Positions 5,271 through 25,116 of a stretch of 64,000 nucleotides of DNA are shown here, piece after piece. Origin of the DNA: Runella rosea. Its GTDB lineage: Bacteria; Bacteroidota; Bacteroidia; Cytophagales; Spirosomataceae. A model generated the notes under the pieces. The model was not told the origin of the DNA, did not search any database, and saw only the letters and a program-made list of their open reading frames with translations. Every line of letters starts with the position of its first letter. Within the stretch, counting starts at the first letter, position 1. The stretch covers positions 2,232,001 to 2,296,000 of the forward strand of contig NZ_CP030850.1 of NCBI RefSeq assembly GCF_003325355.1, read 5' to 3'. The translations under genes were made by a program, and so were the position numbers.

Positions 5271-6515
5271 TTAATTTTCTTTAAATAGCGTTAACAGATT
5301 AGAGTACTTCTTTTTTACATCATCTTCAAAGCTATCAAGGTAATGTTCTGTGGTTTTGAGGCTGTTATGCCCCAAACTCTCAGAAATATACTCAATAGGA
5401 GCCCCACTGCGTTTAAGTACAGTCGAAAAGCTATGCCTTGCAGCATAAGTAGTTACAGGTTTACTTATACCTAATTTCTCCACTATACGCTTCATGTATT
5501 TATTGATCTGCTTTGTCAGATCTTTGACCAATGCTCTTTCCCTCTCAGGGGTAATGTTGGGATGCAAAATAGGGAAAATGTAATTATTCGGCAATTGGTC
5601 AGGAATACCCCATTTGGCAATAATCACTTTGGCATCTGCACCCAAATAAACAACAATGGGCTTTTGGTTGCTCTTTTTGGTATTTTCAGTTTTAGCCCTG
5701 TAAAACACCAATCTATCACCATCCAAGTTTGAGAATTTTAGCCTGCAAATATCCTTAATGTTGATACCATTACATAAGTAGGAGAACATCCAAAGGTCTT
5801 TTGCCTTGGCTTCCATACTGTCAGGAAGGGCTTCATACTCAAAAATCTTCTTTAACTCATTCATGGTGAGTGCTTTTTTGATATTCTGCCCAGCCGGTAT
5901 CTGATATTTTGATTTTTTGAAGGGATATTTTTCTCTTCCAATCAGCCCTTTTTCAATTGCTTGGTTAAAAATGGTTCTTAAACTGCGTAAGTATATACCC
6001 ACTGTTGTAGAAGATTTACCATTGGTCAGCATCCATCTTTCATAACTATTGAGAAAGTCTGGAGTTATATCCTCAAACCTAAGTTTCTTTTTGAAATTTT
6101 GAAGTGAATTCAGGGTACACTCATAGGAACTGGCTGTACCAACTCTGCCTTCTTCCCTTAATTTTTTGACATATAATTCAATGGTAGAATAAACATTGGC
6201 AGGATTTGCACCTTCCTCTTTTGGGAAAAATAGCTTTTCAAAGTCATCAAAGGAAAAGGGGCTTAGTTGGGTAAAGATACTTTGGGCTTTAGATACTGTG
6301 GCAGTGATATTGACTTTGACATCTTTTAGAAATGGGTCACGCAACTTGGAGGAGTCAAGTTTCTTGAAATCTGCTTCACTTAATGAGGGCAATGCTACAT
6401 TGTAATACTTCCTTATTCTATTGAAGGTAACTCTCAATTTTAGGGGGTATGTGCCATCTTGCTTGGCTTTTCTGTTATCCAATACAACTTCTGCCGTAGG
6501 AGTATGTGCTTTCAT
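5271..6515 (-). CDS. Tyrosine site-specific recombinase (integrase)
   Basis: 414 residues. An Arm-DNA-binding N-terminus (TAEVVLDNRKAKQDGTYPLKLRVTF region) is followed by a SAM-like core-binding domain at about 105-200 and a catalytic domain from about 215. Catalytic residues are visible: the box I Arg in INIKDICRLKF, the Arg-His of YAARHSFST, the His of LGHNSLKTTEHYL, and the nucleophilic Tyr in the same motif near residue 395. It belongs to the Bacteroidota transposon/ICE integrase type. It reads away from the tRNA at 6657, whose 5' end is 141 bases upstream of the integrase start; tandem 12-bp repeats lie in between. Confidence 0.93.
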   Translation of the reverse strand: MKAHTPTAEVVLDNRKAKQDGTYPLKLRVTFNRIRKYYNVALPSLSEADFKKLDSSKLRDPFLKDVKVNITATVSKAQSIFTQLSPFSFDDFEKLFFPKEEGANPANVYSTIELYVKKLREEGRVGTASSYECTLNSLQNFKKKLRFEDITPDFLNSYERWMLTNGKSSTTVGIYLRSLRTIFNQAIEKGLIGREKYPFKKSKYQIPAGQNIKKALTMNELKKIFEYEALPDSMEAKAKDLWMFSYLCNGINIKDICRLKFSNLDGDRLVFYRAKTENTKKSNQKPIVVYLGADAKVIIAKWGIPDQLPNNYIFPILHPNITPERERALVKDLTKQINKYMKRIVEKLGISKPVTTYAARHSFSTVLKRSGAPIEYISESLGHNSLKTTEHYLDSFEDDVKKKYSNLLTLFKEN

Positions 6516-6960: not shown

Positions 6961-7413
6961 ATGACTCCTCTACCGTTACGTCTTTTACTGGCTGATGACG
7001 ATGCCGACGATCGTTTATTCTTTCGGGAAGCGCTGGACCAAATTCCCGTTGCCGTTGAGCTTACCACGGTCACAAACGGGCAACAGCTCATCGAGTGGCT
7101 GCAAGAACATCAAGGCGACCTCCCCCACCTGATTTTTTTAGACCTAAATATGCCCCGAAAAAACGGGCATGAATGCTTAACGGAAATCAAGCTAATGCCT
7201 CAATGGCAATCCCTACCCATCATTATCTTCTCGACTTCGATATACCCCGTGCAGGTAGACGAACTGTATCATAAAGGGGCACAATATTACATTCAGAAGC
7301 CAACCGATTTTAAGAAGCTGACGCGGGTGATTGAGCAGTTGCTTCTCATGTCGGAAGAACAAAGGCAGGTACAGCCCGCCAAAAAGGATTTTATTTTATG
7401 CAGAGAAAGATAA
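6961..7413 (+). CDS. Rcp1-type single-domain response regulator
   Basis: 150 residues forming a single receiver domain. The acidic pocket is ADDDADD at 11-17, the phosphoacceptor is D61 in IFLDLNMP, the switch residue lies in IFSTS near 92, and the conserved Lys is K113 in YIQKPT. The loop after the phosphoacceptor (RKNGHECL) is typical of Rcp1-like regulators that partner with phytochrome-like or CheB/CheR-fused kinases. There is no output domain, so it acts by protein contact or as a phosphate relay. It ends 7 bases before the most likely start of the large hybrid kinase and is almost certainly its cognate partner. Confidence 0.92.
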   Translation: MTPLPLRLLLADDDADDRLFFREALDQIPVAVELTTVTNGQQLIEWLQEHQGDLPHLIFLDLNMPRKNGHECLTEIKLMPQWQSLPIIIFSTSIYPVQVDELYHKGAQYYIQKPTDFKKLTRVIEQLLLMSEEQRQVQPAKKDFILCRER

Positions 7414-7420
7414 TGAGCGT

Positions 7421-10400
7421 ATGAAAGCTGATGAAAAAGTGTTGTCCACCAATTTGTTCCCTGTAGTGGGTATTGGCGCATCAGCAGGCGGATTGGAGGC
7501 CTTCCGAAAATTACTCAAAGCCATTCCCGAAAAATCAGGAATCGCCTACGTACTCGTGCAGCATTTAGCCCCCAATCACGAAAGCCTGCTGCCTGATTTA
7601 CTACAAAAAGTAACAAGCATTCCCGTCGTAGAAATCTCCGACGACATTAAGGTGGAGCCTGACCATATTTATATTTTGCCCAGCAATAAGATGCTGGTGG
7701 CCAACGACGGAATATTGCAATTGAGTCCGCGCGTAACCCAAAAAAACGAGCTCAATCTCCCCATTGACATTTTTTTCACCTCTCTGGCTGAAGTCCACCA
7801 AAGCCACGCCATCGGCGTTGTGTTGTCGGGCACGGGCAGCGACGGCACGGGGGGGCTGAAGGCCATTAAAGACCACGGAGGCATCACGTTTGCGCAGGAT
7901 GAAGCATCGGCCGCCTATGAGGGTATGCCCAAAAGCGCCGTACAGGCCGGGGTGGTTGATTTTATTCTACCGCCCGACGAAATCCCCCAAAAACTGTTGG
8001 ACATCATTCGGATTCTTCGCTCAGACACCGCCCAAGACCCCAATGCCGAAGAAACTGAAAAGGAGGTGGTCAAACAAATCCTTACAGTACTGCGCATCCG
8101 GAAAGGAACTGATTTTACGTATTATAAACAAACGACCGTCCGCCGCCGAATCCTGCGCCGAATGGCCATTAACAAAAATGAAGATACCGCCGCCTATTTG
8201 GTTTTGTTAAAGGACAACAAACAGGAACAAGATGCTTTATACCAAGATTTATTGATTCCCGTCACCTCTTTTTTTCGAGACCCGCAGGTATTTGATTATT
8301 TATGCGAAACGGTTTTTCCGCTTATTTTGAAAAACAAAAGCGCGGGAGAACCCATTCGTATATGGGTAGCGGGTTGCAGCACCGGACAAGAAGCCTACTC
8401 AATGGCCATGTGTTTGGCCGAGTTTTTGGGCAATACAACCGAGCGCGTCCAGCTCTTTGCCAGCGATTTGAGTGACCCTGCCATTGCCAAAGCGCGTATT
8501 GGTACCTATTCCAAAAGTGAAGTGGAAAGTCTAACCGCCGAACGCTTGCAAAAATTTTTCCTCAAAAAAAACGGCAACTACCAAATCAATAAATCTGTGC
8601 GGGATATGTGCGTGTTTGCTACGCACAATTTTTTAAAGGATCCACCTTTCAGCAAAATGGATTTAATCAGCTGCCGCAATGTGATGATTTACCTCGAACC
8701 TTACCTTCAAAAAAAGGCATTTACTACATTTCATTATTCATTAAACCCCAAAGGATATTTATTGCTCGGCAAATTGGAAACGGTCGGCAATGTACCTGAC
8801 CTTTTTTCAATCGCCGCCAAAGACGATAAGGTATTTACTCGCAAAGAAGGCCCTGGCCGGTTTATGCCAATGGCTGGCCAACGGAGCGAGTTGAATCTGA
8901 GTTTTGGTACTTCCAAAAACGAAAACATGCGCACCGATTTTCAAAAAATAGCCGACGATCTTATTCTCAGTCGGTATACGCCCGCCGGAGTGGTCATCAA
9001 TGAAGACATGGACATTGTGCATTTTCGCGGCATTACTGGTCCCTATTTAGAACAGACATCTGGCAAACCTACCCATAATTTGTTACTTCTGGCCAAACAC
9101 GGGCTGGCGTTTGAGCTGCGCAATTTGCTCTACAAAGCAAAAAAAGACAATGCTCGGGTAATCAAAGAAATTATCCCGTTTCGGGCAGATGGCAGCCTAC
9201 GTACCATTTCTATCGAAATTTTACCCCTGCCAGGTACGCCTGAACCTCACTATTTGATTCTTTTTCACGAGACAAATGCCGTTGACCCGCTCCCTCCGAC
9301 AGGCCGCCCCAAGAAAGCGACAAAATCAGCATTGGACGATAAAGACCTTCGCATTCGGCAATTTGAGCAGGAGCTCATCCAAACCCGCGAAGATATGCGC
9401 GCCATTACGCAAGACCAAGAGGCCTTGAGCGAAGAACTTCAAAGCGCCAACGAAGAATTATTGAGCGGCAACGAAGAGTTGCAAAGCCTCAACGAAGAAT
9501 TGGAAACGGGTAAAGAAGAACTCCAAAGCACCAACGAAGAGCTGACGGTGGTCAACCGCGAACTGAGCAGCCTGAATGAGCAGATAACGAACGCCCGAGA
9601 TTATGCCGAAGGTATCATTGCCACCATACGCGAGCCCCTGCTGGTGCTGGATAAAAACCTGCGGGTAAAAACCGCCAACCTTTCCTATTATAATGCCTTC
9701 AAGGTAAACACCGCCGACACCGAGGGTAAATTAATCTACGAAACAGGCCACAAAGACTGGGATATACCCGTCCTGAAAGAACTGCTTGAAAATATTCTTC
9801 CCGAAAAATCAACCTTTGATAACTTAGAGTTAACGCATACATTTTATAATATTGGCGAGCGGCGAATGCGGCTGAATGCCCGCGAAATAAAAGCGGGAAA
9901 TTCGGAGAAATTAATCCTGCTCGCGATTGAAGATATTACCGAGCAAGCCCGCGCCGAAGAAGCACGGATAGAAATCCAAAAACGCTACCAATTCATCACC
10001 AATTCGATTCCACAAAAAGTATGGGCAACCGATGAAGAAGGCAATCTCAACTTTTTTAATGACGTTTGGCTCGACTATACCGGGCTTTCGGTGGATGAAC
10101 TTAAAGAGTGGGGATGGAAAAAAATAATCCACCCCGACGAGTGGGAAGAATACAAAAGCAAGTGGCAGCACTCGCTTGCTACTGGTACTGAATTTGAACT
10201 CGAACACCGATTATTGAATAAGGAAGGAGAATACCGGTGGCATTTGAGCCGGGGACTGGCCTACAAAGCCGACAACGGAAAACCAGCAATGCTGTGGGTA
10301 GGGACGCACACCGAAATTCAACAGCATAACAAACTAAAAGAAGACCTAAAAAAAGCCGTAGCCGAACGAACATCAGAATTGAAGGAGGCAAATGCAAGCC

Positions 10401-11143
10401 TCGTGGAAAAAAACAAAAGCCTTCAGAAACTTATCAAGGAGCTTGAATCTTTTACCTATGTATCAAGCCATGACCTACAGGAACCACTGCGTAAAATACA
10501 ACTACTAGCCCGGTATATCGACGACCACGAAAGCCAAAACTTAACCGCAGGCGGCAAAGATTATTTTAGACGCATCCTAAATTCTGCCGAGAGAATGCAA
10601 CAACTAATCAACGATTTGCTGTTGTTCACCCGATTTAATACTGAAGCCCGTAACTTTGAAAGTACAAATCTTCGCTCCATTGTTGAGGAGGTAGTGGCCG
10701 AAATGAGCGAAACCATCCAAGAAAAACACGCTACCATTGACGTAGCCCATCTCGGTTCGGCTGCCGTCATCACGTTTCAGTTTCGTCAACTCATGCAAAA
10801 TCTCATTGGCAATGCCCTTAAATTCTCAAATCCCAATCGCTCTCCCCACATACGGATAAAAAGCCGGGTTGTAAGCGGTGATAAATTGAAGAATGAAAAG
10901 CTTTTGCCCGAAAAAAAATATTGCCACATCACGGTCATCGACAATGGTATCGGCTTTGATCCCCAATACAGCGAACGAATATTTGAGGTCTTCCAACGCC
11001 TGCACGAACGTGAACAATACCAAGGTACGGGCATCGGGCTGGCAATTGTCAAAAAAATCGTTGAGAATCACAACGGAATCATCACGGCCACGGGCAGGCC
11101 AGGCAAAGGTGCCCAATTTAATATTTATATTCCAGCTTCCTAA
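7421..11143 (+). CDS. CheB-CheR-PAS-histidine kinase fusion protein
   Basis: I place the start at ATG 7421, 7 bases after the response-regulator stop; the frame is open upstream to 7331, but that start would overlap the regulator. 1240 residues. CheB methylesterase domain at about 13-190 with the triad visible: S21 (GIGASAGG), H48 (VQHLAP) and D141 (SGTGSDGTGG). CheR methyltransferase at about 210-470 with WVAGCSTGQEAYS as SAM site. Then a Glu-rich coiled coil with repeated NEEL units (about 665-730), two PAS domains, HisKA with H1017 (SSHDLQEPL) and an HATPase domain (IGNALKFSN; DNGIGF; GTGIGLAIVKK). No membrane segment, so it is cytoplasmic. Such fusions are thought to sense and adapt, but ligands are mostly unknown. 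Confidence 0.93.
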   Translation: MKADEKVLSTNLFPVVGIGASAGGLEAFRKLLKAIPEKSGIAYVLVQHLAPNHESLLPDLLQKVTSIPVVEISDDIKVEPDHIYILPSNKMLVANDGILQLSPRVTQKNELNLPIDIFFTSLAEVHQSHAIGVVLSGTGSDGTGGLKAIKDHGGITFAQDEASAAYEGMPKSAVQAGVVDFILPPDEIPQKLLDIIRILRSDTAQDPNAEETEKEVVKQILTVLRIRKGTDFTYYKQTTVRRRILRRMAINKNEDTAAYLVLLKDNKQEQDALYQDLLIPVTSFFRDPQVFDYLCETVFPLILKNKSAGEPIRIWVAGCSTGQEAYSMAMCLAEFLGNTTERVQLFASDLSDPAIAKARIGTYSKSEVESLTAERLQKFFLKKNGNYQINKSVRDMCVFATHNFLKDPPFSKMDLISCRNVMIYLEPYLQKKAFTTFHYSLNPKGYLLLGKLETVGNVPDLFSIAAKDDKVFTRKEGPGRFMPMAGQRSELNLSFGTSKNENMRTDFQKIADDLILSRYTPAGVVINEDMDIVHFRGITGPYLEQTSGKPTHNLLLLAKHGLAFELRNLLYKAKKDNARVIKEIIPFRADGSLRTISIEILPLPGTPEPHYLILFHETNAVDPLPPTGRPKKATKSALDDKDLRIRQFEQELIQTREDMRAITQDQEALSEELQSANEELLSGNEELQSLNEELETGKEELQSTNEELTVVNRELSSLNEQITNARDYAEGIIATIREPLLVLDKNLRVKTANLSYYNAFKVNTADTEGKLIYETGHKDWDIPVLKELLENILPEKSTFDNLELTHTFYNIGERRMRLNAREIKAGNSEKLILLAIEDITEQARAEEARIEIQKRYQFITNSIPQKVWATDEEGNLNFFNDVWLDYTGLSVDELKEWGWKKIIHPDEWEEYKSKWQHSLATGTEFELEHRLLNKEGEYRWHLSRGLAYKADNGKPAMLWVGTHTEIQQHNKLKEDLKKAVAERTSELKEANASLVEKNKSLQKLIKELESFTYVSSHDLQEPLRKIQLLARYIDDHESQNLTAGGKDYFRRILNSAERMQQLINDLLLFTRFNTEARNFESTNLRSIVEEVVAEMSETIQEKHATIDVAHLGSAAVITFQFRQLMQNLIGNALKFSNPNRSPHIRIKSRVVSGDKLKNEKLLPEKKYCHITVIDNGIGFDPQYSERIFEVFQRLHEREQYQGTGIGLAIVKKIVENHNGIITATGRPGKGAQFNIYIPAS

Positions 11144-11181: not shown

Positions 11182-11553
11182 TCACTTTTTCGATTTAACG
11201 ACCCCATCCCCTTGCAGTTTACGACTGCGGGGCGTTTTCTTGAGTTTTAGTGTCAAAAGAACGCTTTTCATCCTACGCGACGGAGCAACGACAAACCCCG
11301 ATTTCATCACAATTGCCCCTTCTTTTACCTTGGAAATGTGCGTCTTATTGACCGAAACCCTTTTGTGTACCCTGGTAAGCGCCAAATGGGTCGTTATCCT
11401 TCCTAAATTGTGTGAGCTGAGAAGCCGCGTACCATCCATCAAGTAGATGTAGGTATAGTTAGAGGCAGAAGTGAGATACTCAACCTCTGGGGCCGAAATA
11501 AGTATATTATCAACAATCATATCAAGCAGGGTTTTGTGTGCTGTTATTATCAC
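11182..11553 (-). CDS. Stand-alone LytTR DNA-binding protein
   Basis: 123 residues. ILISAPEVEYLTSASNYTY, LSSHNLGRITTHL, RVHKRVSVNKTHISKV and VAPSRRMKSVL follow the LytTR fold from first strand to last. No receiver, membrane or sensor domain precedes it, so activity must be set by abundance, partners or a small ligand. The C-terminal 20 residues are strongly basic (LKLKKTPRSRKLQGDGVVKSKK region). It is the third gene on the minus strand after the polysaccharide synthase, 170 bases downstream of it, and converges with the hybrid kinase 38 bases away. It may regulate the synthase operon, but no target site was identified. Confidence 0.85.
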   Translation of the reverse strand: MIITAHKTLLDMIVDNILISAPEVEYLTSASNYTYIYLMDGTRLLSSHNLGRITTHLALTRVHKRVSVNKTHISKVKEGAIVMKSGFVVAPSRRMKSVLLTLKLKKTPRSRKLQGDGVVKSKK

Positions 11554-11723: not shown

Positions 11724-14700
11724 CTAAAGACTTCCGTCCATGGGGCGTTTTTTATTGACAACCAAGGGTGTATTTAAGGTTGTTTGGAGCACATCAACAA
11801 CCGTCGACCCCGCAACAACGTAAAGATAAAGTCGATACATTGAAGGGTTTTCGGGAATTTTGACCTGTATTTTGGGGTCATTGCCGAGTTCTTTCATGGA
11901 CAATGCCTGCTCAAACCGACCGATTTGAACCAATTTCCACTCAAACTGTACGTTTGCCGAGAGTGAATCGGCCAAGTACCATTGATATTCTTTGTGTACC
12001 AAGGCATGATACGTAAGCGTAGTAGCGGGAATGGTTGCCAATGCAGGTTTTAAGATTTTCACTATCGGCGGCGGTGCGGGGGCTTTGGTACCTTTCCAGA
12101 GATGTCGCAGCTGCATAAAGGACGTTTTTTGTCGTCGTCGAAAATCCTTTATTCCGTCAAAATTGACCAATCCACTATTAAATACGTCTTGCCAATTGGT
12201 AATAAATACCCCCGTTTTTTGGGGTTTAAACGCGGCATATTGAGCCACTGTTATACTCCTGAAAAAATACGGAACGCTTAGTTCTTCTAGCAAACTCAAA
12301 TCAGCCACTGGAGATGCCTTCACTTTGATGCCGAATGCATCCACCTCGGGCATCAGTCGGTGCATTTGATGAACTGTTTTGGGTAAATCATCCGCTAACG
12401 TGACATCAATCGTAACTGATCGGGACGGGTCAATTTGCTTGATACTACGCACCAGATTTTTAACAAAAAACAGGTACGCATCTCGCTGAATAATCAAATC
12501 AGGTTTGAAATACCGAAACTGAAGTTCTTGAAAAACGGCGTTACCGATGTTCCAGCCAATGATATTTTTGTTGTCTTTGTACGAACTAACCACCGCAAGA
12601 ATATCTATCCTGGCTTGTTCCAATTTATTTTTTTCTTCCACAAAATCGAGGTGGTCATCAATCCAAAAACTAAAATTCACCTTCATGCCTGTTTCCTCGG
12701 CGGCCCGGATGATATTTCGGTCGTAGATGCCCGGGCCGCTGTGTTTGATGGTGTTGATACCGAGGGTTTTCATTTCGTAAAAATCCTCCAACAATTCACC
12801 CATTCTGAGAGGATTCGGGCTCTTAACCCAATCTTGGGCTTTGGTATAATTGATGCCTCTAGTTCCTACAAAAAAAGCACTTTGGGTCGTTGTTAAAGCT
12901 ATATTTTTGGGGGCCGTCCCATACGATGTCAGGAGTTTGGGTATAGGCTCAATCTCTGTTTTCTTAAATCTGTTTTGCGCCCTCACCAACCTGCCCGACT
13001 CATCGGTTAGGTCGTTGATACGTCGGAGCCGGCCAAATGGCCCTGCCGTTCTGCCAGAAATGACCACGGCTTTGATTTCAGAAAATGAAGTGCGGATTGA
13101 TTTAGCCTCTTTGTCGGACAACGACTGGTTGTCGTTTTCTACCAACATCACGGGCATTCCTGATTGAAAAACGGGATGTTTATGAAAAGCCCAATATTGC
13201 TTTTTGATGGGTAAAGAACCACGGTCTTCGTTTAGGCTACTGACGGCCATCCAATCAACGTACTGACGGCCCGGAAAATAGGGGTCGATGGATTCGGGCG
13301 TACCTGGATTCCACACCCAAATCACCCGGTACAATCCCTGATTGCGAAAAAAATCATGCATGTATTTCCAGGCGGCCTTAAACACCTCGGGAGTGTTGGG
13401 CGCGGGATTCGGCAGTTTGCCAACTTCGGGGGCAAAGCGGATAAAAACAGGGCGATTCAGCGCTTTAAACTGACGGCAGAACTGCAAAAGATACGCATCC
13501 TCCTTTCCGTTTGTGATTAGCTCAAAAACGCTGGCGTAGTCAGAAAGGCGCGAAGGAAGTACCCACGTAATCATGGGCAAAGAGCCGTTACGGTATACAG
13601 AATCTAAAGTACGGGTAGGCAAATAGCCATTGGCCCACCGAACATGAAAAGCAAGGATGTCAAAATGGGTTTTATTCTCCCCGCTCAAGGGGAAAGCCGT
13701 GCCCATGGTATTGACCGACCGGGCGTCGATTCCCGTCAAAAAAAAGTTTACCCGATGGTCTTTGTAAATCGTCGGAGGCAGTCCTTTCTGTCGGAACTGA
13801 ACCATGTAAATAATAGGACAGGTCAAAAGGATTGATAACAATAAAGGTGTACGTCTGACAACGGTGTAAATACGACGCCTGATAATCCAGAAATGCCCCT
13901 TTGCTTCCCGAAGAAACAGCAACCCGATGTTCAGCCGTTTATACCGAACGGCCAAGATTCGAAACTGGGGCTGTCTGCTTATCAAAACGGTAAAACCCAT
14001 AAACATGGCATTCAGCCCCGCAAATACCGACATACTCAGGTTGTAGGGGTTCCAGTCGGTATACAATCCATAACAAATAGAAAATAGGGACAAGAACAAA
14101 ATGACGAGATTAGGGATATTTAAAGGCCAGTTATTTGCCTCTTTTCCATCTTTGGGTGTGGGTACGTAAGGGACTTTTACCCCAAACAGGGTATACAAAA
14201 AACCCAGAATAAATACCCACCAAGTGCCAATCATTAAAAGCCCGCCTATTACATGAAAACCCCGCTCGGTATCTTCCATCACCCACCATTGTACAAATTG
14301 CCTGATAAGAACGACTACGGTTAGGAAAGGTAAGGCGATTAGACCAAAGTCCGTAATGTCCATCTTCATCGGACTAGTATGAAAGCATAGCGAGAGAATG
14401 GGAATCAAAAAATTGAGGAAGAATATAATCCCCGAAAGATAATGAAGCGGAATCAGCGCATAATGAATCTTCTGGCGCAGGGTGAATTGCGTAAACAACT
14501 TGGGATAGACAGTGACCAACAAATCAAACACCCCCCGCGACCATTTCAGTTGTTGTTTATAATACGCCGACAAGGTAGAAGGCACCAGCCCTCGGGCCAG
14601 CACAGCAGGCACATAGACTGATTTCCAACCCTTTGCATGGAGCCGCATGGCAGTGTGCATATCCTCGGCAAGGCCAGCGGCGTGGCCTCCGATGGATTCC

Positions 14701-15440
14701 AGCGCCGCACGCCGGAAGGTACAGTTAGCCCCAATGGCCATTACGGTTCCGTAGTGGTTCATGGTCATCATCATCGGGCCATAAAACTGGTAGGTCTGCT
14801 GCGCGGCACCCTTGGCGATTAAGCTCTCCTCGCTGTTTTTATAGGCCTGCACAATCTGGACAAACCCAATGGCAGGATCATTAAAATGCGACACAATCGG
14901 GTCCAGAAAATCGGCAGAAGGTACATGGTCGGGGTCCAAAACAACGCAAAGCTCCCCCGATGATTGGCGCAAGGCATTATTGATATTACCCGCCTTGGCA
15001 TTCTTTTTCTCAAGTCGAGTAACGTGATGTACCCCCAACTGTGCACAAAGACGCTTGAGGTACGGGTCGTCTGCTTCGTCGCACAGGTAAGTAGTGTGCG
15101 GATAGGTTATGGCAACAATAGCCCGCAGGGTTTCCTCAATCATTTCATAAGGCTCCCCCGCACAAAAGGTGGTAAAAATATCGACAGTATAGGTTTTATT
15201 GACGGGCGGCTCTTTCGGAATTGTGATACTAAAATAGTGGTACCATTCGTAAAGAATGGTGAGACAGGTAAAAAAGAAAGCCGTCATCAACATCACGTAC
15301 AGCGCACCATTTCCCCGAACGCCCCCCCCCAACAGCTTAGTCATAAAAAATACCATCGACACTAACCCTAAAAGAATCATGAGCCTCAGGGTGAGCAATT
15401 CGCGTTTGGTGGGTGGTTTTATCAATAACCGATTTTTCAT
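11724..15440 (-). CDS. Processive GT2 synthase fused to GH26-like and inactive GH-like domains
   Basis: 1238 residues. Residues 20-70 hold two membrane helices. The GT2 domain (about 84-310) is of cellulose/hyaluronan-synthase type: D121, DPD at 169-171, ED at 259-260 and QQLKW at 296-300 (a Lys variant of Q-x-x-R-W). About five more helices follow to 550, with no PilZ domain. Residues 560-810 resemble GH26: FIRFAPEVG supplies E672, WVWNPGTPE...FPGRQYVDW the family signature, and VMLVEND E768 at the nucleophile position. Residues 855-1110 form a second TIM barrel in which the acid/base motif reads NIGNA (A968) instead of GNE, so it is probably inactive. The start overlaps the end of the upstream glycosidase gene by 4 bases. 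Inferred role: synthesis and export of a beta-glycan with editing outside the membrane. Confidence 0.85.
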   Translation of the reverse strand: MKNRLLIKPPTKRELLTLRLMILLGLVSMVFFMTKLLGGGVRGNGALYVMLMTAFFFTCLTILYEWYHYFSITIPKEPPVNKTYTVDIFTTFCAGEPYEMIEETLRAIVAITYPHTTYLCDEADDPYLKRLCAQLGVHHVTRLEKKNAKAGNINNALRQSSGELCVVLDPDHVPSADFLDPIVSHFNDPAIGFVQIVQAYKNSEESLIAKGAAQQTYQFYGPMMMTMNHYGTVMAIGANCTFRRAALESIGGHAAGLAEDMHTAMRLHAKGWKSVYVPAVLARGLVPSTLSAYYKQQLKWSRGVFDLLVTVYPKLFTQFTLRQKIHYALIPLHYLSGIIFFLNFLIPILSLCFHTSPMKMDITDFGLIALPFLTVVVLIRQFVQWWVMEDTERGFHVIGGLLMIGTWWVFILGFLYTLFGVKVPYVPTPKDGKEANNWPLNIPNLVILFLSLFSICYGLYTDWNPYNLSMSVFAGLNAMFMGFTVLISRQPQFRILAVRYKRLNIGLLFLREAKGHFWIIRRRIYTVVRRTPLLLSILLTCPIIYMVQFRQKGLPPTIYKDHRVNFFLTGIDARSVNTMGTAFPLSGENKTHFDILAFHVRWANGYLPTRTLDSVYRNGSLPMITWVLPSRLSDYASVFELITNGKEDAYLLQFCRQFKALNRPVFIRFAPEVGKLPNPAPNTPEVFKAAWKYMHDFFRNQGLYRVIWVWNPGTPESIDPYFPGRQYVDWMAVSSLNEDRGSLPIKKQYWAFHKHPVFQSGMPVMLVENDNQSLSDKEAKSIRTSFSEIKAVVISGRTAGPFGRLRRINDLTDESGRLVRAQNRFKKTEIEPIPKLLTSYGTAPKNIALTTTQSAFFVGTRGINYTKAQDWVKSPNPLRMGELLEDFYEMKTLGINTIKHSGPGIYDRNIIRAAEETGMKVNFSFWIDDHLDFVEEKNKLEQARIDILAVVSSYKDNKNIIGWNIGNAVFQELQFRYFKPDLIIQRDAYLFFVKNLVRSIKQIDPSRSVTIDVTLADDLPKTVHQMHRLMPEVDAFGIKVKASPVADLSLLEELSVPYFFRSITVAQYAAFKPQKTGVFITNWQDVFNSGLVNFDGIKDFRRRQKTSFMQLRHLWKGTKAPAPPPIVKILKPALATIPATTLTYHALVHKEYQWYLADSLSANVQFEWKLVQIGRFEQALSMKELGNDPKIQVKIPENPSMYRLYLYVVAGSTVVDVLQTTLNTPLVVNKKRPMDGSL

Positions 15441-16768
15441 GGCGGACCAACGACGTAAAAAGGAATATTACAGGTAGCAAAATTTCCCCGATTGTTATAA
15501 ATGGTGGCAAAAATCCGGTAGGGGCCTTCCTCTTCGGGAGCCGTAAAAGCAACTTTGAGCTCCGTCGAGTTTTTGTTTAGTTGGGGCAACGGCGTGAGTT
15601 TTTTTGTATTGGCCTGATTGTTTATTCGCAGCCAATCTTCTTTGAACAACTGCCACTTTATTGTTTTAATACTTCCGCCCAATGAATCCACAAATATCTC
15701 CGCCGTAGACGGGGCATTGGCCGTAAGCAAAATATTATCTTTGGCCTTCTTTGAATTAAGCAACATGGTTTTGACCGTGGGAAATTCGTGTTTATAAGTT
15801 TTCCCCGTCCACTGGAATTTCATTCTACCCACGGTTTCGGAGTGGGCACCCCCTTCATCAAAAAGGCTAAACCATGTATGCGTTCCTTCTTGTTTATGCC
15901 CCCAATAAAACAAACATGAACCTAAAAAACGAGAATCTTCGACAGGCATATACTGCTGGTAGCGAGTCAGGCATCGCGCAGCTTTTTCGGTAGAAGTAGG
16001 TTCTAGATACGCTCCCCAAGCGGTTTGTTTGGTTCCTTCCCATGGGCCGTCGATCCCCCACTCCGACAGTAGAAAAGGGCCATTCCAAAACCATTTCATC
16101 CAATCCAAATCATCACGGAGCGTGTTTATTCGGTTATAAATATTGAATGAGATGATGTCGATATTGCATCGAACCACCAGATTCAGAATCGATTTTTTAT
16201 CAAAATTAAGGAGAACAGTCGTAATCGGATGGTCTGGATCATCCCGATGAATCATATCGACCAATCCGTTAAATACCTTGTAAAAGTTGTTGTAAGAGGG
16301 ATTGTACGGAAAACTGACCTCATTCCCGATTGACCACATCAGCAGGGCTGGGTGCTGCTTAAATCGGTTCACCACGGCGCTATAGTCTTTGTGCATTTGG
16401 GCCGCCCGCACTGGATTATTGAAAAAAGAAGTTTCGTGATAATCTGGAAGGTATAACCCCACAATCACGCTGAGGTTATTTGCCAGCGCACTATCCAGAA
16501 TCACGGCCAAGTTGGTGGTATCCCAAGTCCGCAGGGTATTACCGCCCGATTCTCTCAGAACCGAGCAATACGAATATCCCGAAGCACCATTGATAAAAAA
16601 AGGCTTTCCGTCTTTGAGTAAGGCATACTTACCGTTTTTCTTTTCAACGTACACTTTTCGGCGACTCTTACCATTTTCGGCTTCTTTACACCCATTCAGT
16701 ACAGAAATAATTAGCGCAAAAAAACCAAGTTTGAAAATAAAAAAGTAGTTTCTTTTTGGGAAAACCAT
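15437..16768 (-). CDS. Lipoprotein glycoside hydrolase, GH2/GH5-like TIM barrel
   Basis: 443 residues. A signal peptide ends in the lipobox LNGC (C27). The (beta/alpha)8 domain spans about 40-330: GGNTLRTWD near 75-83, the acid/base Glu in SIGNEVSF (E150) and the nucleophile Glu in LLSEWGID (E236), both present, as in GH2 C-terminal or GH5 clan A enzymes. An Ig-like C-terminal domain (about 335-440) follows. The stop overlaps the start of the GT2 fusion gene (ATGA), so the pair is translationally coupled. As an anchored hydrolase next to a polysaccharide synthase it may trim or release the polymer, as BcsZ does for cellulose. Substrate unknown. Confidence 0.85.
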   Translation of the reverse strand: MVFPKRNYFFIFKLGFFALIISVLNGCKEAENGKSRRKVYVEKKNGKYALLKDGKPFFINGASGYSYCSVLRESGGNTLRTWDTTNLAVILDSALANNLSVIVGLYLPDYHETSFFNNPVRAAQMHKDYSAVVNRFKQHPALLMWSIGNEVSFPYNPSYNNFYKVFNGLVDMIHRDDPDHPITTVLLNFDKKSILNLVVRCNIDIISFNIYNRINTLRDDLDWMKWFWNGPFLLSEWGIDGPWEGTKQTAWGAYLEPTSTEKAARCLTRYQQYMPVEDSRFLGSCLFYWGHKQEGTHTWFSLFDEGGAHSETVGRMKFQWTGKTYKHEFPTVKTMLLNSKKAKDNILLTANAPSTAEIFVDSLGGSIKTIKWQLFKEDWLRINNQANTKKLTPLPQLNKNSTELKVAFTAPEEEGPYRIFATIYNNRGNFATCNIPFYVVGPP

Positions 16769-21218: not shown

Positions 21219-22466
21219 ATGTTTTTAACTTCAAAAACCATTTGTTCGGCCCGCGCCGTAGTCACTTTAGGAATAGCCTCGGTAGTATTGACGTTTATGT
21301 CAAGCTGTTCATCCTCCAACAAAGATACCATGTCTTCTACTGCAAATTCTTTCGGCACCGACCTCGAATTCTTAAAAAAACACCAACAAACCATCGTTCT
21401 CACCGCTCCCGACGACGACTCTGCGCAAGTAGCCGTGGTCGGGGCGTTGCAGGGGCGCGTGATGACCTCCACCGCCAACGGCACTTCGGGCAACAGCTAC
21501 GGCTGGCTCAATTATAAACTCCTCGAATCGGGCAAATTCACACCGCACATGAGCGCCTTTGGCGGTGAAGACCGCTTCTGGATTGGTCCCGAGGGCGGGC
21601 AGTTCTCCATTTATTTTCAGCAAGGCAAACAATTCGTGTTCGACGATTGGCAAGTACCCGCCGTCATTGATTCCGAGCCGTTCGAGGTGGTTTCTTCCGA
21701 CAAATCAAAAGCAGTTTTTCGTAAAACGGCTTCATTGACCAATTATTCAGGCACCAAATTCGACCTACAAATAGACCGCAGCGTGGAGGCCCTCAGCAAA
21801 ATAGCCATCGAAACGGCCATCAATTTCCCGCTCAAAGATGTAAAAACGGTAGCCTACGAAACCGTCAATACCATCACCAATCAAGGGGCGGACTGGAACA
21901 AAGAAACGGGGCTGCTTTCCATTTGGATTTTGGGGATGTTTAATCCTACACCTAAAACCACCGTGGTGGTACCGTTTGTGGGAGGCGCTGACCACAAAAG
22001 CAAAATCAACGACAGCTATTTTGGCAAAGTCCCCGCCGAGCGCCTTATCGTCGAAGACAGCGTGCTGTACTTCAAAGCCGACGGAAAACACCGCAGCAAG
22101 ATCGGTCTGCCGCCAACTATTGCCAAGCCTGTGATGGGTAGTTATGATTCCGAGAAAGGCGTTTTGACGATTGTTACCTACGATTTAGACCCCACCGGCG
22201 ACTACGTCAACTCGATGTGGGAAATCCAGAAAGAGCCCTTCAAAGGTGATGCCGCCAATTCTTACAATGACGGCCCCGTAGAAGACGGTACGCAAATGGG
22301 TCCGTTTTATGAACTGGAATCCTCCTCCCCCGCCAAAGCCCTCAAAAAAGGCGAAACCCTCACCCACCGCAGCCGCACCTATCACTTTGAAGGCGACAAA
22401 ATGGCGCTGAATGCCGTGGCAAGGAGAATGCTAGGCGTGAGTTTGGAGGAAATTGTGAAGCATTGA
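21219..22466 (+). CDS. DUF6786-like lipoprotein
   Basis: 415 residues. The N-terminus has a hydrophobic signal ending in lipobox SSC (near residue 30), so it is a lipoprotein. The body has alternating beta-strand character with FGGEDRFWIGPEGGQFSIYF near 108-127, a motif I associate with DUF6786 proteins of Bacteroidota, whose fold is thought to resemble galactose mutarotase. No catalytic residues are known. It is followed 79 bases downstream by a GH116 glucosidase on the same strand, suggesting a joint role in carbohydrate use. The family name is from memory and was not searched. Confidence 0.65.
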   Translation: MFLTSKTICSARAVVTLGIASVVLTFMSSCSSSNKDTMSSTANSFGTDLEFLKKHQQTIVLTAPDDDSAQVAVVGALQGRVMTSTANGTSGNSYGWLNYKLLESGKFTPHMSAFGGEDRFWIGPEGGQFSIYFQQGKQFVFDDWQVPAVIDSEPFEVVSSDKSKAVFRKTASLTNYSGTKFDLQIDRSVEALSKIAIETAINFPLKDVKTVAYETVNTITNQGADWNKETGLLSIWILGMFNPTPKTTVVVPFVGGADHKSKINDSYFGKVPAERLIVEDSVLYFKADGKHRSKIGLPPTIAKPVMGSYDSEKGVLTIVTYDLDPTGDYVNSMWEIQKEPFKGDAANSYNDGPVEDGTQMGPFYELESSSPAKALKKGETLTHRSRTYHFEGDKMALNAVARRMLGVSLEEIVKH

Positions 22467-22545: not shown

Positions 22546-25116
22546 ATGAAAAAACTCCTTTTCCTCCTCTGCATCGCCACGCAAGCCCTCGCTCAAAGCC
22601 CTTGGAAACCGCAAAAGTGGCCTGTTTTAAAACATTATGACCAACAACACCTCACCCGCATTGCCATGCCCATCGGCGGCATCGGCACGGGAACCGTGTC
22701 GCTGGGAGGACGCGGGCAGTTGCAGGATTGGGAAATCATGAACCGTCCGGGAAAAGGATTCAGTACGACCCTACCGGGCAATATGGCTCCGTTCTTTGCC
22801 ATTTATGTCAAAAAACCAACCGAAAACGCCCAAGCCAAAGCCCTCATAGGCCCGATCGAAACGCATGAGTACCAACACATGGAAGGTCGTCCCGTGGACC
22901 ATCACGGTTTGCCGCGATTTGCCAAAGCGAGTTTTGACGCCGCGTATCCGTTTGGACAAGTGAATTTGTCGGACGAAAAAATGCCCGTTACGGTTCAGAT
23001 CAAAGCCTTCAATCCTCTCATTCCCGGCGATGCCGAGCGCAGCGGGATTCCGATGGCGGCCCTGACCTACGAAGTCACCAACACGTCCAACCAACCGCTG
23101 ACGGTTTCGGTGGCGGGGTCGATGCGTAATTTTGTGGGGAAAGACGGCTCCAAAGGCTCCAAATCGTGGAAAGGCGAGTTCAACCCATCGGGGGCGAAGC
23201 AGAATAAAAATCAATTTCGGCAAGGAAAAGCAGGACAGGGCATTTTCATGTATTCCGACGGCGTGGACAAAGCCGACCCCGCTTGGGGAACGATTGCCCT
23301 AAGTACCAACGCCGGCGGCGACGTCAGCTACCGCACGTCGTCCGTGCCCAACGCGTGGGAAAATGCGTTGTTGGATTTTTGGGATGATTTTACGGACGAC
23401 GGCAAATTGACCGAAAAAAACACCGTCGCCGACGAAGACCCGATGGCGTCGTTGGCCGTGAAGAAAACGATTCAACCCAAACAAACCGAGTCGTTTACGT
23501 TTTTTATCACGTGGCATTTTCCCAACCGTTTTGCGTGGTCGAAAGAGCGCGTGGGCAACTACTACACCACTCGCTACGCTGACGCGTGGGAAGTAGCCGA
23601 AAAGGCCGTGCCGCAATTGCCCCAACTCGAAAATGAGACGTTGCTCTTTGTCAACAACTTCCTGAAAAGCGATTATCCCGAAGCCGTCAAAGAAGCGGCG
23701 CTCTTCAATCTCAGCACGTTGCGCTCCCAAACCGTGTTCCGCACCGAAGACGGGCGAATGTTTGGCTGGGAGGGCGTCATGGACAACGAAGGCTCCTGCG
23801 CGGGTTCGTGTACGCACGTTTGGAACTACGAGCAGGCCACAGCCTTTTTGTTCGGTGATCTGGCCCAAACCATGCGCGACGTAGAGTTTAACTACGCCCT
23901 CGACAGCACCTCGGGCATCATGCAGTTTCGGGTGGGCCTACCGCTCAACAAAGGTGCGGGCAACGGCATGGCCGCCGCCGACGGGCAAATGGGCACCATC
24001 ATGAAGTTTTACCGCGATTGGCAACTATCGGGCAATACCGCTTTTCTGCAAAAAAACTGGCCGAAAATCAAACGTGCGCTGGCGTTCGCGTGGGTGCCCG
24101 ACGGCTGGGACGGCAACCTCGACGGTGTGATGGACGGGGCGCAGCACAACACCATGGACGTAGAATATTTCGGGCCCAATCCGCAGATGCAGATCTGGTA
24201 TTTGGGCGCGTTGAAAGCTGCCGAAAAAATGGCCGAAGCCATGCACGATGCCGCTTTTGCGCAGCAATGCAAAACCCTTTTTCAAAGCGGCAGTACGTGG
24301 GCCGACCAACAGTTGTTCAACGGTGAATATTACGAGCAACAGGTGATCTCGCCCGTAGGACGCAAGTTTGCCAAGGGCACGATGTCGGGCTGGAACAGCA
24401 TTCAGGGCGATTTTCCGCCGTTTCAGTTGGCCAAAGGCTGTTTGGTGGACCAATTGGTGGGGCAATTCATGGCGCACGTGTGCGGCTTGGGCTATTTGGT
24501 GAAACCGCAAAACGTACAGACCTCGCTGAAATCCATCCTGAAATACAACTACCGCGCCACGCTGACGGAGCATTTCAACAACATGCGCTCCTACGCCCTG
24601 GCCGACGAGCCCGCGTTGCTCATGGCAAGCTGGCCCAAAGGCCGCCCCACGGTGCCGTTCCCGTATTTTGCCGAAGTGATGACGGGTTTTGAATACACCG
24701 CCGCCATCGGAATGCTTTACGAAAACATGACCGAAGACGGCCTCAAATGCATCCAAAACATCCGTTACCGCTACGACGGTGCCAAGCGCAGCCCCTTCGA
24801 CGAGGCCGAATGCGGCCACCACTACGCCCGCGCCATGATCAGCTGGGCTTCTACGTTGGCGTTGAGCGGCTTCCAATACTCAGGCGTAGAAAAAACCCTT
24901 CATTTCAACGACCAACCCGGCACCTTTTTCTGGTCCAACGGCTACGCGTGGGGAACCTGCACGAAGCAAAAACAAGGCGCCCAACTCAAAACCACCCTCA
25001 CCGTTTTGCACGGACAATTACCCGTTCAAACCGTACAGATTGGCAATAAAAAAGTGCATGAATTGGCCGGGAATACGGTTTTGAAGGTTGGGGAGAAGGT
25101 GGAGTTTTTGCGGTAG
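22546..25116 (+). CDS. GH116 family glycoside hydrolase (GBA2-like glucosylceramidase)
   Basis: 856 residues with a signal peptide ending at LAQSPWKP (about 17). The N-terminal MPIGGIGTGTVSLGGRGQLQDW block is diagnostic of GH116 (beta-sandwich, residues 25-330). The (alpha/alpha)6 domain follows, with NEGSCAGSCTHVWNYEQA near 410 and HNTMDVEYFGPN near 533-544, whose Asp corresponds to the general acid of characterised GH116 enzymes. Family activities are beta-glucosidase, beta-xylosidase and glucosylceramidase. Export to the periplasm suggests use of plant or microbial beta-glucosides. It probably forms an operon with the preceding DUF6786-like lipoprotein. Codon use is notably GC-rich here. 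Confidence 0.9.
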   Translation: MKKLLFLLCIATQALAQSPWKPQKWPVLKHYDQQHLTRIAMPIGGIGTGTVSLGGRGQLQDWEIMNRPGKGFSTTLPGNMAPFFAIYVKKPTENAQAKALIGPIETHEYQHMEGRPVDHHGLPRFAKASFDAAYPFGQVNLSDEKMPVTVQIKAFNPLIPGDAERSGIPMAALTYEVTNTSNQPLTVSVAGSMRNFVGKDGSKGSKSWKGEFNPSGAKQNKNQFRQGKAGQGIFMYSDGVDKADPAWGTIALSTNAGGDVSYRTSSVPNAWENALLDFWDDFTDDGKLTEKNTVADEDPMASLAVKKTIQPKQTESFTFFITWHFPNRFAWSKERVGNYYTTRYADAWEVAEKAVPQLPQLENETLLFVNNFLKSDYPEAVKEAALFNLSTLRSQTVFRTEDGRMFGWEGVMDNEGSCAGSCTHVWNYEQATAFLFGDLAQTMRDVEFNYALDSTSGIMQFRVGLPLNKGAGNGMAAADGQMGTIMKFYRDWQLSGNTAFLQKNWPKIKRALAFAWVPDGWDGNLDGVMDGAQHNTMDVEYFGPNPQMQIWYLGALKAAEKMAEAMHDAAFAQQCKTLFQSGSTWADQQLFNGEYYEQQVISPVGRKFAKGTMSGWNSIQGDFPPFQLAKGCLVDQLVGQFMAHVCGLGYLVKPQNVQTSLKSILKYNYRATLTEHFNNMRSYALADEPALLMASWPKGRPTVPFPYFAEVMTGFEYTAAIGMLYENMTEDGLKCIQNIRYRYDGAKRSPFDEAECGHHYARAMISWASTLALSGFQYSGVEKTLHFNDQPGTFFWSNGYAWGTCTKQKQGAQLKTTLTVLHGQLPVQTVQIGNKKVHELAGNTVLKVGEKVEFLR

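Follow-up and report, generated by a model that had tools for sequence, protein, structure and literature searches.

That a polysaccharide synthase can be fused to a glycosidase is already known from NdvB and the GH17-GT2 proteins. The Pseudomonas NdvB ('Orphan' GH17-TM-GT2; TM, transmembrane) cyclic-beta-glucan synthase combines in one chain a BcsA-like family 2 glycosyltransferase (GT2) and a periplasmic TIM-barrel glycosidase that is proposed to process the emitted beta-1,3-glucan (PMC10237404), and the GH17-GT2 proteins Glt1, Glt3 and Glt7 are mentioned in a further paper (PMC11005184). The processive GT2 synthases BcsA and CcsA are co-encoded with a dedicated glycosidase, BcsZ of family GH8 and CcsZ of family GH5, respectively, and in the case of CcsZ the specificity of the hydrolase was used to infer the polymer (PMC7710045). 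BgsA of Sinorhizobium and RiGT2 of Romboutsia are BcsA-like GT2 proteins that make mixed-linkage glucan; they carry a QxxRW motif, and the available parts of the descriptions mention no fused glycosidase (PMC10374906, PMC7997180). RiGT2 was expressed in a yeast deficient in glucan (PMC10374906). Here, a gene pair of Runella rosea (Spirosomataceae) is analyzed that lies in a window of 64,000 nucleotides (contig NZ_CP030850.1, positions 2,232,001 to 2,296,000; the window means this whole stretch). One gene codes for a GH158 lipoprotein and the other for a GT2 synthase tethered to two domains, which descend from a lichenase-like GH26 and from GH158 according to sequence, profile and fold:

15437..16768, minus strand: upstream gene of the pair, GH158 lipoprotein of 443 amino acids with lipobox LNGC and the catalytic residues E150 and E236
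11724..15440, minus strand: fused synthase gene, 1238 amino acids, GT2 - GH26 - decayed GH158
13791..15440, minus strand: GT2 synthase and membrane region, residues 1-550, QQLKW, gating-loop-like PYVPTPKDG at 424
12996..13772, minus strand: GH26 domain, lichenase-like, residues 557-815, E672 and E768 kept, motif around them decayed
11727..12956, minus strand: third domain, derived from GH158, residues 829-1238, with A968 and S1062 in place of the two catalytic Glu

The pair is read, with moderate confidence, as a Bacteroidota system of two genes for synthase-dependent exopolysaccharide production: it would make a beta-1,3-containing glucan, the GH158 lipoprotein would do the cutting, and the fused domains would be former enzymes. 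The hydrolase of NdvB is a GH17 domain at the N-terminus, whereas the Runella chain carries GH26 and GH158 domains in tandem at its C-terminus; in addition, the Runella synthase has a separate GH158 gene, and the fused domains of the window copy are decayed. With BcsA/BcsZ and CcsA/CcsZ the locus shares the processive GT2 and the dedicated, co-encoded glycosidase, but it has GH158 and the fused domains in place of GH8 or GH5, a QxxKW motif and no PilZ match. With BgsA and RiGT2, which were compared by description and not by sequence, it shares a BcsA-like GT2 and a possible mixed-linkage product; the QxxKW motif and the fusion distinguish it from them. An earlier note on this DNA had described two open reading frames overlapping by ATGA, and these are present as listed, the end of the lipoprotein gene overlapping the start of the synthase gene. 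It had also stated that cellulose synthase operons keep synthase and hydrolase (BcsA, BcsZ) as separate proteins; as a correction, NdvB already has a synthase and a glycosidase in one chain (PMC10237404). The author of the note knew of no described system with this domain order, and our search agrees: the GT2-GH26-GH158 set was not found described in literature titles and abstract starts, a coverage that leaves subscription journals and preprints mostly outside.

Residues 1-550 of the fused chain are a cellulose-synthase-type GT2 (Pfam Glyco_trans_2_3, 1.5e-24), which BcsA matches at 2e-33 in a sequence search of the PDB. The Asp motifs CDEADD at 120, DPDH at 169 and LAEDMH at 257 are kept, and QQLKW is present at 296; the K and W of the latter are invariant in 35 of 35 aligned synthase rows. 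An AlphaFold2 model of residues 44-1238 was built from 35 sequences (mean predicted local distance difference test 81.6, predicted template modelling score 0.74, linkers of low confidence). Its comparison with the PDB by Foldseek returned a BcsA-like catalytic domain with membrane helices (E. coli BcsA 5.5e-24; BcsA of 4p00 8e-22); the Foldseek listing gives no residue ranges, and the domain assignment rests on the sequence and profile-profile comparisons. About seven membrane helices are seen in hydropathy and model, including a hydrophobic stretch at 13-41 that lies outside the model. This suggests seven membrane spans, the last at approximately 532-550, although count and sidedness are predictions, and the domains that follow the last span are therefore predicted to be periplasmic. 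No GH17 match was found by Pfam in the synthase chain, in which the GT2 is N-terminal. Cellulose synthase was the best-named candidate, with matches to NCBIfam CelA (best for the GT2, 164 bits against a cut-off of 699 bits) and PRK11498. It was rejected as the identity of the GT2 because the scores fall far below cut-off, Pfam matches no PilZ domain in the chain with E values as high as 10, and the last motif reads QxxKW. The usual place of PilZ is taken by the helix region and the glycosidase domains.

The closest solved relative of the fused GH26 is CtLic26A (PDB 2bvd, 2cip), an enzyme that degrades polymers as a stand-alone protein. CtLic26A is the best non-GT2 match of the fused chain in the PDB (approximately 7e-11 over 593-738, phmmer), Foldseek returns the same family-26 lichenase at 1.8e-10, and the Runella GH26 rows match the separate GH26 proteins of relatives at a profile E of 5e-19, against 0.12 for GH158. 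The Pfam GH26 model (PF02156) recognizes relatives but gives no match to the window copy with E values as high as 10. Both catalytic Glu, E672 and E768, are present, but the window copy keeps only 31 of the 49 columns conserved across 17 intact relatives (a set that omits L112, the tandem second barrels described below and one open reading frame of L105; L-numbers denote the stretches of relatives), the other 18 being changed or deleted. Among the losses are the His before the acid/base (residue 671 is Pro), the Glu of WEPW, the Tyr and Trp of YPW, a Tyr (position 738) and the Gly of Glu-x-Gly, two positions after the nucleophile. By these columns, the site around E672 and E768 has decayed, and the window GH26 is probably dead or altered. 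Among 32 distinct fused GH26 rows, 15 have both Glu with His-Glu and 13 are without at least one Glu; in the remaining four, from the window and three other Runella, both Glu are retained but the His is not. A smaller alignment set adds two stretches of another genus, L009 and L010, with this combination, and the full motif is kept in all three separate GH26 proteins aligned. CtLic26A is also the closest solved relative of the one separate GH26 searched (L080, 6e-36); the window domain differs from it in being joined to a membrane synthase and in its decayed motif.

The third domain (829-1238) is a second TIM barrel, which Foldseek matches to BuGH158 at 1.4e-12. Profile-profile comparison with GH158 gave an E of 6e-46 with one choice of settings, of 1e-32 with another and of 2e-16 for the Runella rows alone; as controls, the third domain against the separate GH26 gave E 0.46, and GH158 against the separate GH26 gave E 0.11. 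Identity to the neighbouring lipoprotein is 24% (BLASTP, E 0.004). GH72 or GH2 was considered, since Pfam GH72 and GH2_C match some relatives, but profile comparison and Foldseek favour GH158. The window copy has Ala968 and Ser1062 at the columns of the catalytic Glu and, having lost both, is by its residues catalytically dead. Both Glu are kept in four of 34 third domains (L107, L109, L110 and L111); those of L041 (masked bases, one catalytic site among them) and L105 (split frame) are incomplete.

The lipoprotein is a GH158 protein by its PDB sequence matches (2e-51 and 5e-43). The endo-laminarinase BuGH158 (PDB 6pal) has the catalytic residues Asn136-Glu137 and Glu220 (PMC7157763), and the lipoprotein has N149-E150 (acid/base) and E236 (nucleophile) at these positions. 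The Asn and both Glu are kept in all 44 distinct separate GH158 proteins. BuGH158 thus has a relative by sequence in the lipoprotein and by fold in the third domain, the difference being that the Runella GH158 gene accompanies a synthase. A lipobox was found by a simple pattern in 27 of 45 GH158 genes, and several of the others have, by eye, Cys-containing leaders that the pattern missed. The GH158 proteins of L086, L087, L089, L107 and L041 start, by eye, with a membrane helix and not with a lipobox, so that their anchoring may differ in those lineages.

Much of what the earlier note had claimed about these proteins was borne out, namely the GT2 motifs and seven or so helices, the GH26-like domain with E672 and E768, and a lipoprotein glycosidase with E150 and E236, now identified as GH158. 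The GH26-like segment and the second barrel both match glycosidase folds; overlooked were the degenerate motif around the two GH26 Glu and the loss of both Glu in the barrel, which is real and a GH158 relative. The note had also proposed that one membrane machine makes and edits a glycan. The making side agrees with a processive-type GT2 that is joined to predicted-periplasmic glycosidase folds and co-encoded with a glycosidase, but catalytic editing by the fused domains finds no support in this copy, whose third domain is without both Glu and whose GH26 motif is degenerate.

The tie between the GH158 gene and the synthase was followed in 150 genomes of the family, counted as distinct genomes. 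The synthase was found in 37, GH158 in 38 and both in 37, and no genome had the synthase alone (Fisher 2e-34; the genomes are related to one another, so that this is not a probability for independent samples). The 37 genomes are those with matches above 500 bits; the other 19 of 56 (approximately 74-85 bits, other GT2s) were dropped. A single family genome, G131, has GH158 but no strong synthase match (1 of 38), and the window's own genome has one GH158 only. Architectures were compared in the window and 52 stretches, of which 40 were chosen from matches and 12 came from the 13 contigs of another search (L033 omitted); some represent the same genome twice (certainly L036 and L102), which slightly inflates the stretch counts. 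GH158 lies near the synthase in 45 of these 53 stretches, 31 times on the same strand (30 upstream of the synthase) and 14 times on the opposite strand, at a distance of at most 315 bp in 44 of the 45. The other eight stretches lack it: they comprise L083, L110, L115, L045, which is cut off, and all four of the split loci described below.

The single GT2-GH26-GH158 chain occurs in Runella, Dyadobacter flavalbus, other families and genomes beyond the class. GT2-GH158 chains without GH26 (approximately 970-990 amino acids) were found in Dyadobacter fermentans and its kin, GT2-GH26 chains without the GH158 domain have approximately 830-890 amino acids, and the GT2 stands alone either with an adjoining GH158 gene (L116, L119) or without (L115, L083). 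At four loci (L080, L081, L118 and L082, the synthase of the last found by tblastn after gene calling had missed it), GT2 and GH26 are separate, adjacent genes. Some relatives, L109 and L111 among them, carry all catalytic Glu of both hydrolase domains in one chain, and the single chain of L109 matches BcsA at 3e-34, GH158 at 8e-22 and CtLic26A at 5e-15. In a GT2 tree of 50 rows (midpoint root for drawing only; two rows with very long branches), the four architectures require eight changes against a minimum of three, so that domains were gained or lost repeatedly. From the full-motif forms in several lineages we infer a direction from enzyme to decayed domain. The distribution is patchy: five of 13 genomes of the genus have the synthase, and matches with E values up to 1e-60 occur in 35 of 241 genomes of the order and 16 of 395 of the phylum. 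In the split loci L080, L081 and L118, a gene containing tetratricopeptide repeats (TPR) precedes the synthase and the separate GH26 follows it. The TPR proteins (L081:5184-6806, L080:8358-9935, L118:8157-9698) are candidate outer-membrane exporters; in one of them, the part beyond the repeats resembles, by eye, outer-membrane beta barrels such as those of BcsC and PgaA.

Three Runella genomes carry a synthase gene with 91-93% identity to that of the window and a fourth carries one with 75%; named Runella contigs give 92-93%. Ratios of nonsynonymous to synonymous substitution (dN/dS) of the window against the three close genomes are 0.04-0.06 for the GT2 core, 0.07-0.09 for the membrane part, 0.11-0.13 for GH158, 0.11-0.19 for GH26 and 0.16-0.21 for the third domain. 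Against the farthest genome they are 0.09, 0.12, 0.11, 0.32 and 0.19, in the same order; these are four pairs only, with a dS of 0.6-1.2 for the farthest. Decay of the fused domains as junk is ruled out, since dN/dS stays well below 1 in both; they change faster than the synthase core yet remain under constraint, a pattern more in keeping with a retained role than with junk.

In the proposed system, the GT2 would polymerize sugar from the cytoplasm and extrude it through its own membrane channel, as its BcsA fold and motifs suggest, and the emerging chain would then meet the two tethered domains in their predicted periplasmic position. Because the GH158-derived domain is, by its residues, dead and the GH26 probably dead or altered, both would most likely serve as glycan-binding or hand-off modules. 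Cutting, for length control, quality control or release, would fall to the separate GH158 lipoprotein, which has kept its catalytic residues in every copy examined. The two partner hydrolases suggest that the product is most likely a glucan with beta-1,3 linkages, possibly a mixed-linkage beta-1,3/1,4-glucan: BuGH158 shows high specificity for laminarin (PMC7157763), lichenase cuts beta-1,4 linkages next to beta-1,3 linkages (PMC7997180), and PDB titles among the Foldseek matches name GH158(Pro) soaked with laminaritetraose and with mixed-linkage G4G3G. The attachment of a lichenase-like GH26 and of GH158 to the synthase therefore points to a beta-1,3-containing glucan, perhaps of mixed linkage.

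Several observations weigh against this reading. The motif of the GT2 is QxxKW, whereas a comparison of bacterial beta-glucan synthases (PMC6821405) reports the signature D, D, D, QxxRW in all of them. The GT2 is approximately 26-32% identical to BcsA and scores similarly against Sinorhizobium plasmid glycosyltransferases (tblastn against plasmids), and since BcsA and the rhizobial proteins score alike, it does not tell the linkage. An exporter gene was not recognized among the seven window neighbours scanned on both sides of the pair. The conservation of E672 and E768 in all five Runella genomes aligned is left unexplained by a purely structural role. In the Dyadobacter stretch L037, a TonB receptor, a SusD-like protein and a GntR regulator (L037:1774-7494, minus strand) lie beside the GH158 gene on the opposite strand, and such clusters recur in five other Dyadobacter stretches; this SusC/SusD pair could serve the uptake or recycling of the same glucan, or another sugar.

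Three other explanations were weighed, which overlap with one another and with the preferred one, so that the confidence placed in each is not part of a common sum. The same machine might make another beta-glycan (cellulose-like, or containing mannan or N-acetylglucosamine), with GH26 and GH158 members of unrecognized specificity. BcsA is the nearest GT2 by sequence and fold among the references searched, and beta-1,3-xylanase and mannanases from the PDB appear as weak GH26 matches. The separate GH26, however, scores 128 bits against lichenase, 21 against beta-1,3-xylanase and 19 against mannanase, and the GH158 relatives in the PDB are the laminarinase and the protein soaked with the two kinds of oligosaccharide, which makes another product rather unlikely. 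Alternatively, the fused GH26 of the window, its chemistry or specificity altered, may still cut or transglycosylate the growing chain, which would be compatible with the other views of the product. The retention of both Glu across Runella, their presence without the His in L009 and L010 of another genus, continuing purifying selection and the existence of full-motif relatives speak for activity; in view of the 18 of 49 conserved columns changed or deleted, the His before the acid/base among them, and of sister lineages without the domain or its nucleophile, it is considered unlikely. That the hydrolases serve beta-glucan catabolism or recycling and are tied to the synthase only secondarily is very improbable: GH158 was characterized from a utilization locus of gut Bacteroides (PMC7157763) and the six Dyadobacter stretches carry the cluster described above, but co-occurrence with the synthase is near-perfect, the genes are translationally coupled, both hydrolase families are covalently fused to the synthase, and SusC/SusD is confined to Dyadobacter among the neighbours scanned (a minority of all neighbours), the large neighbours of L113, L115, L094 and L034 not being such genes.

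Other large neighbours scanned in relatives were a resistance-nodulation-division pump with an outer-membrane factor (L115), a C25 peptidase (L034) and a TonB-dependent barrel (L090), and three large neighbours, two proteins of L113 and one of L094, gave no Pfam match. In 14 stretches, a neighbouring protein of approximately 560-610 amino acids consists of two tandem GH26-like barrels (e.g. L042:11946-13625, minus strand; L104:11062-12759; L101:11488-13266). The catalytic pair is present in the second barrel in 14 of 14 and in the first in none, the first being without the nucleophile Glu. This protein adjoins all seven Dyadobacter GT2-GH158 loci, which are without a fused GH26, and a catalytic GH26 may therefore act in trans there; it also occurs at L103 and L104, next to a synthase with a full-motif fused GH26, which counts against simple replacement. 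It was not found in the window's own genome in a search that had no positive control.

In the window itself, a LytTR DNA-binding protein (11182-11553, minus strand) is encoded on the same strand approximately 170 bp downstream of the synthase gene, and a BNR-repeat protein and an M13 peptidase lie approximately 240 bp upstream of the pair; no SusC/SusD pair was seen among the seven neighbours scanned on both sides. Further away are a CheB-CheR-PAS-histidine kinase fusion of 1270 amino acids that follows a response regulator (7331-11143, plus strand), a GH116 beta-glucosidase-like protein (22546-25116, plus strand) adjoining a DUF6786 protein (21219-22466), and a tyrosine recombinase (5271-6515, minus strand) that belongs to the phage integrase family, has SAM-like and arm-binding domains and is possibly the integrase of a mobile element.

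As a wider and more tentative proposal, such loci may represent a Bacteroidota family of single-chain glucan factories, in which synthase, lichenase and laminarinase became fused, the GH158 acting in trans stayed the cutter and the fused enzymes repeatedly decayed into periplasmic glycan chaperones. A single chain that both makes and processes a polymer would then be, to our knowledge, the phylum's first synthase of a mixed-linkage (or beta-1,3) glucan, and its relatives a natural enzyme-to-pseudoenzyme series inside a polysaccharide synthase. The relatives form a graded series, from separate genes and fused domains with catalytic residues to one dead domain, decayed domains and a missing domain, and this series makes the role of a synthase-bound hydrolase testable, that is, cutting the chain versus holding or guiding it. 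A further prediction is that a beta-1,3-containing exopolysaccharide is made in this phylum, whose members are better known for degrading glucans of this kind.

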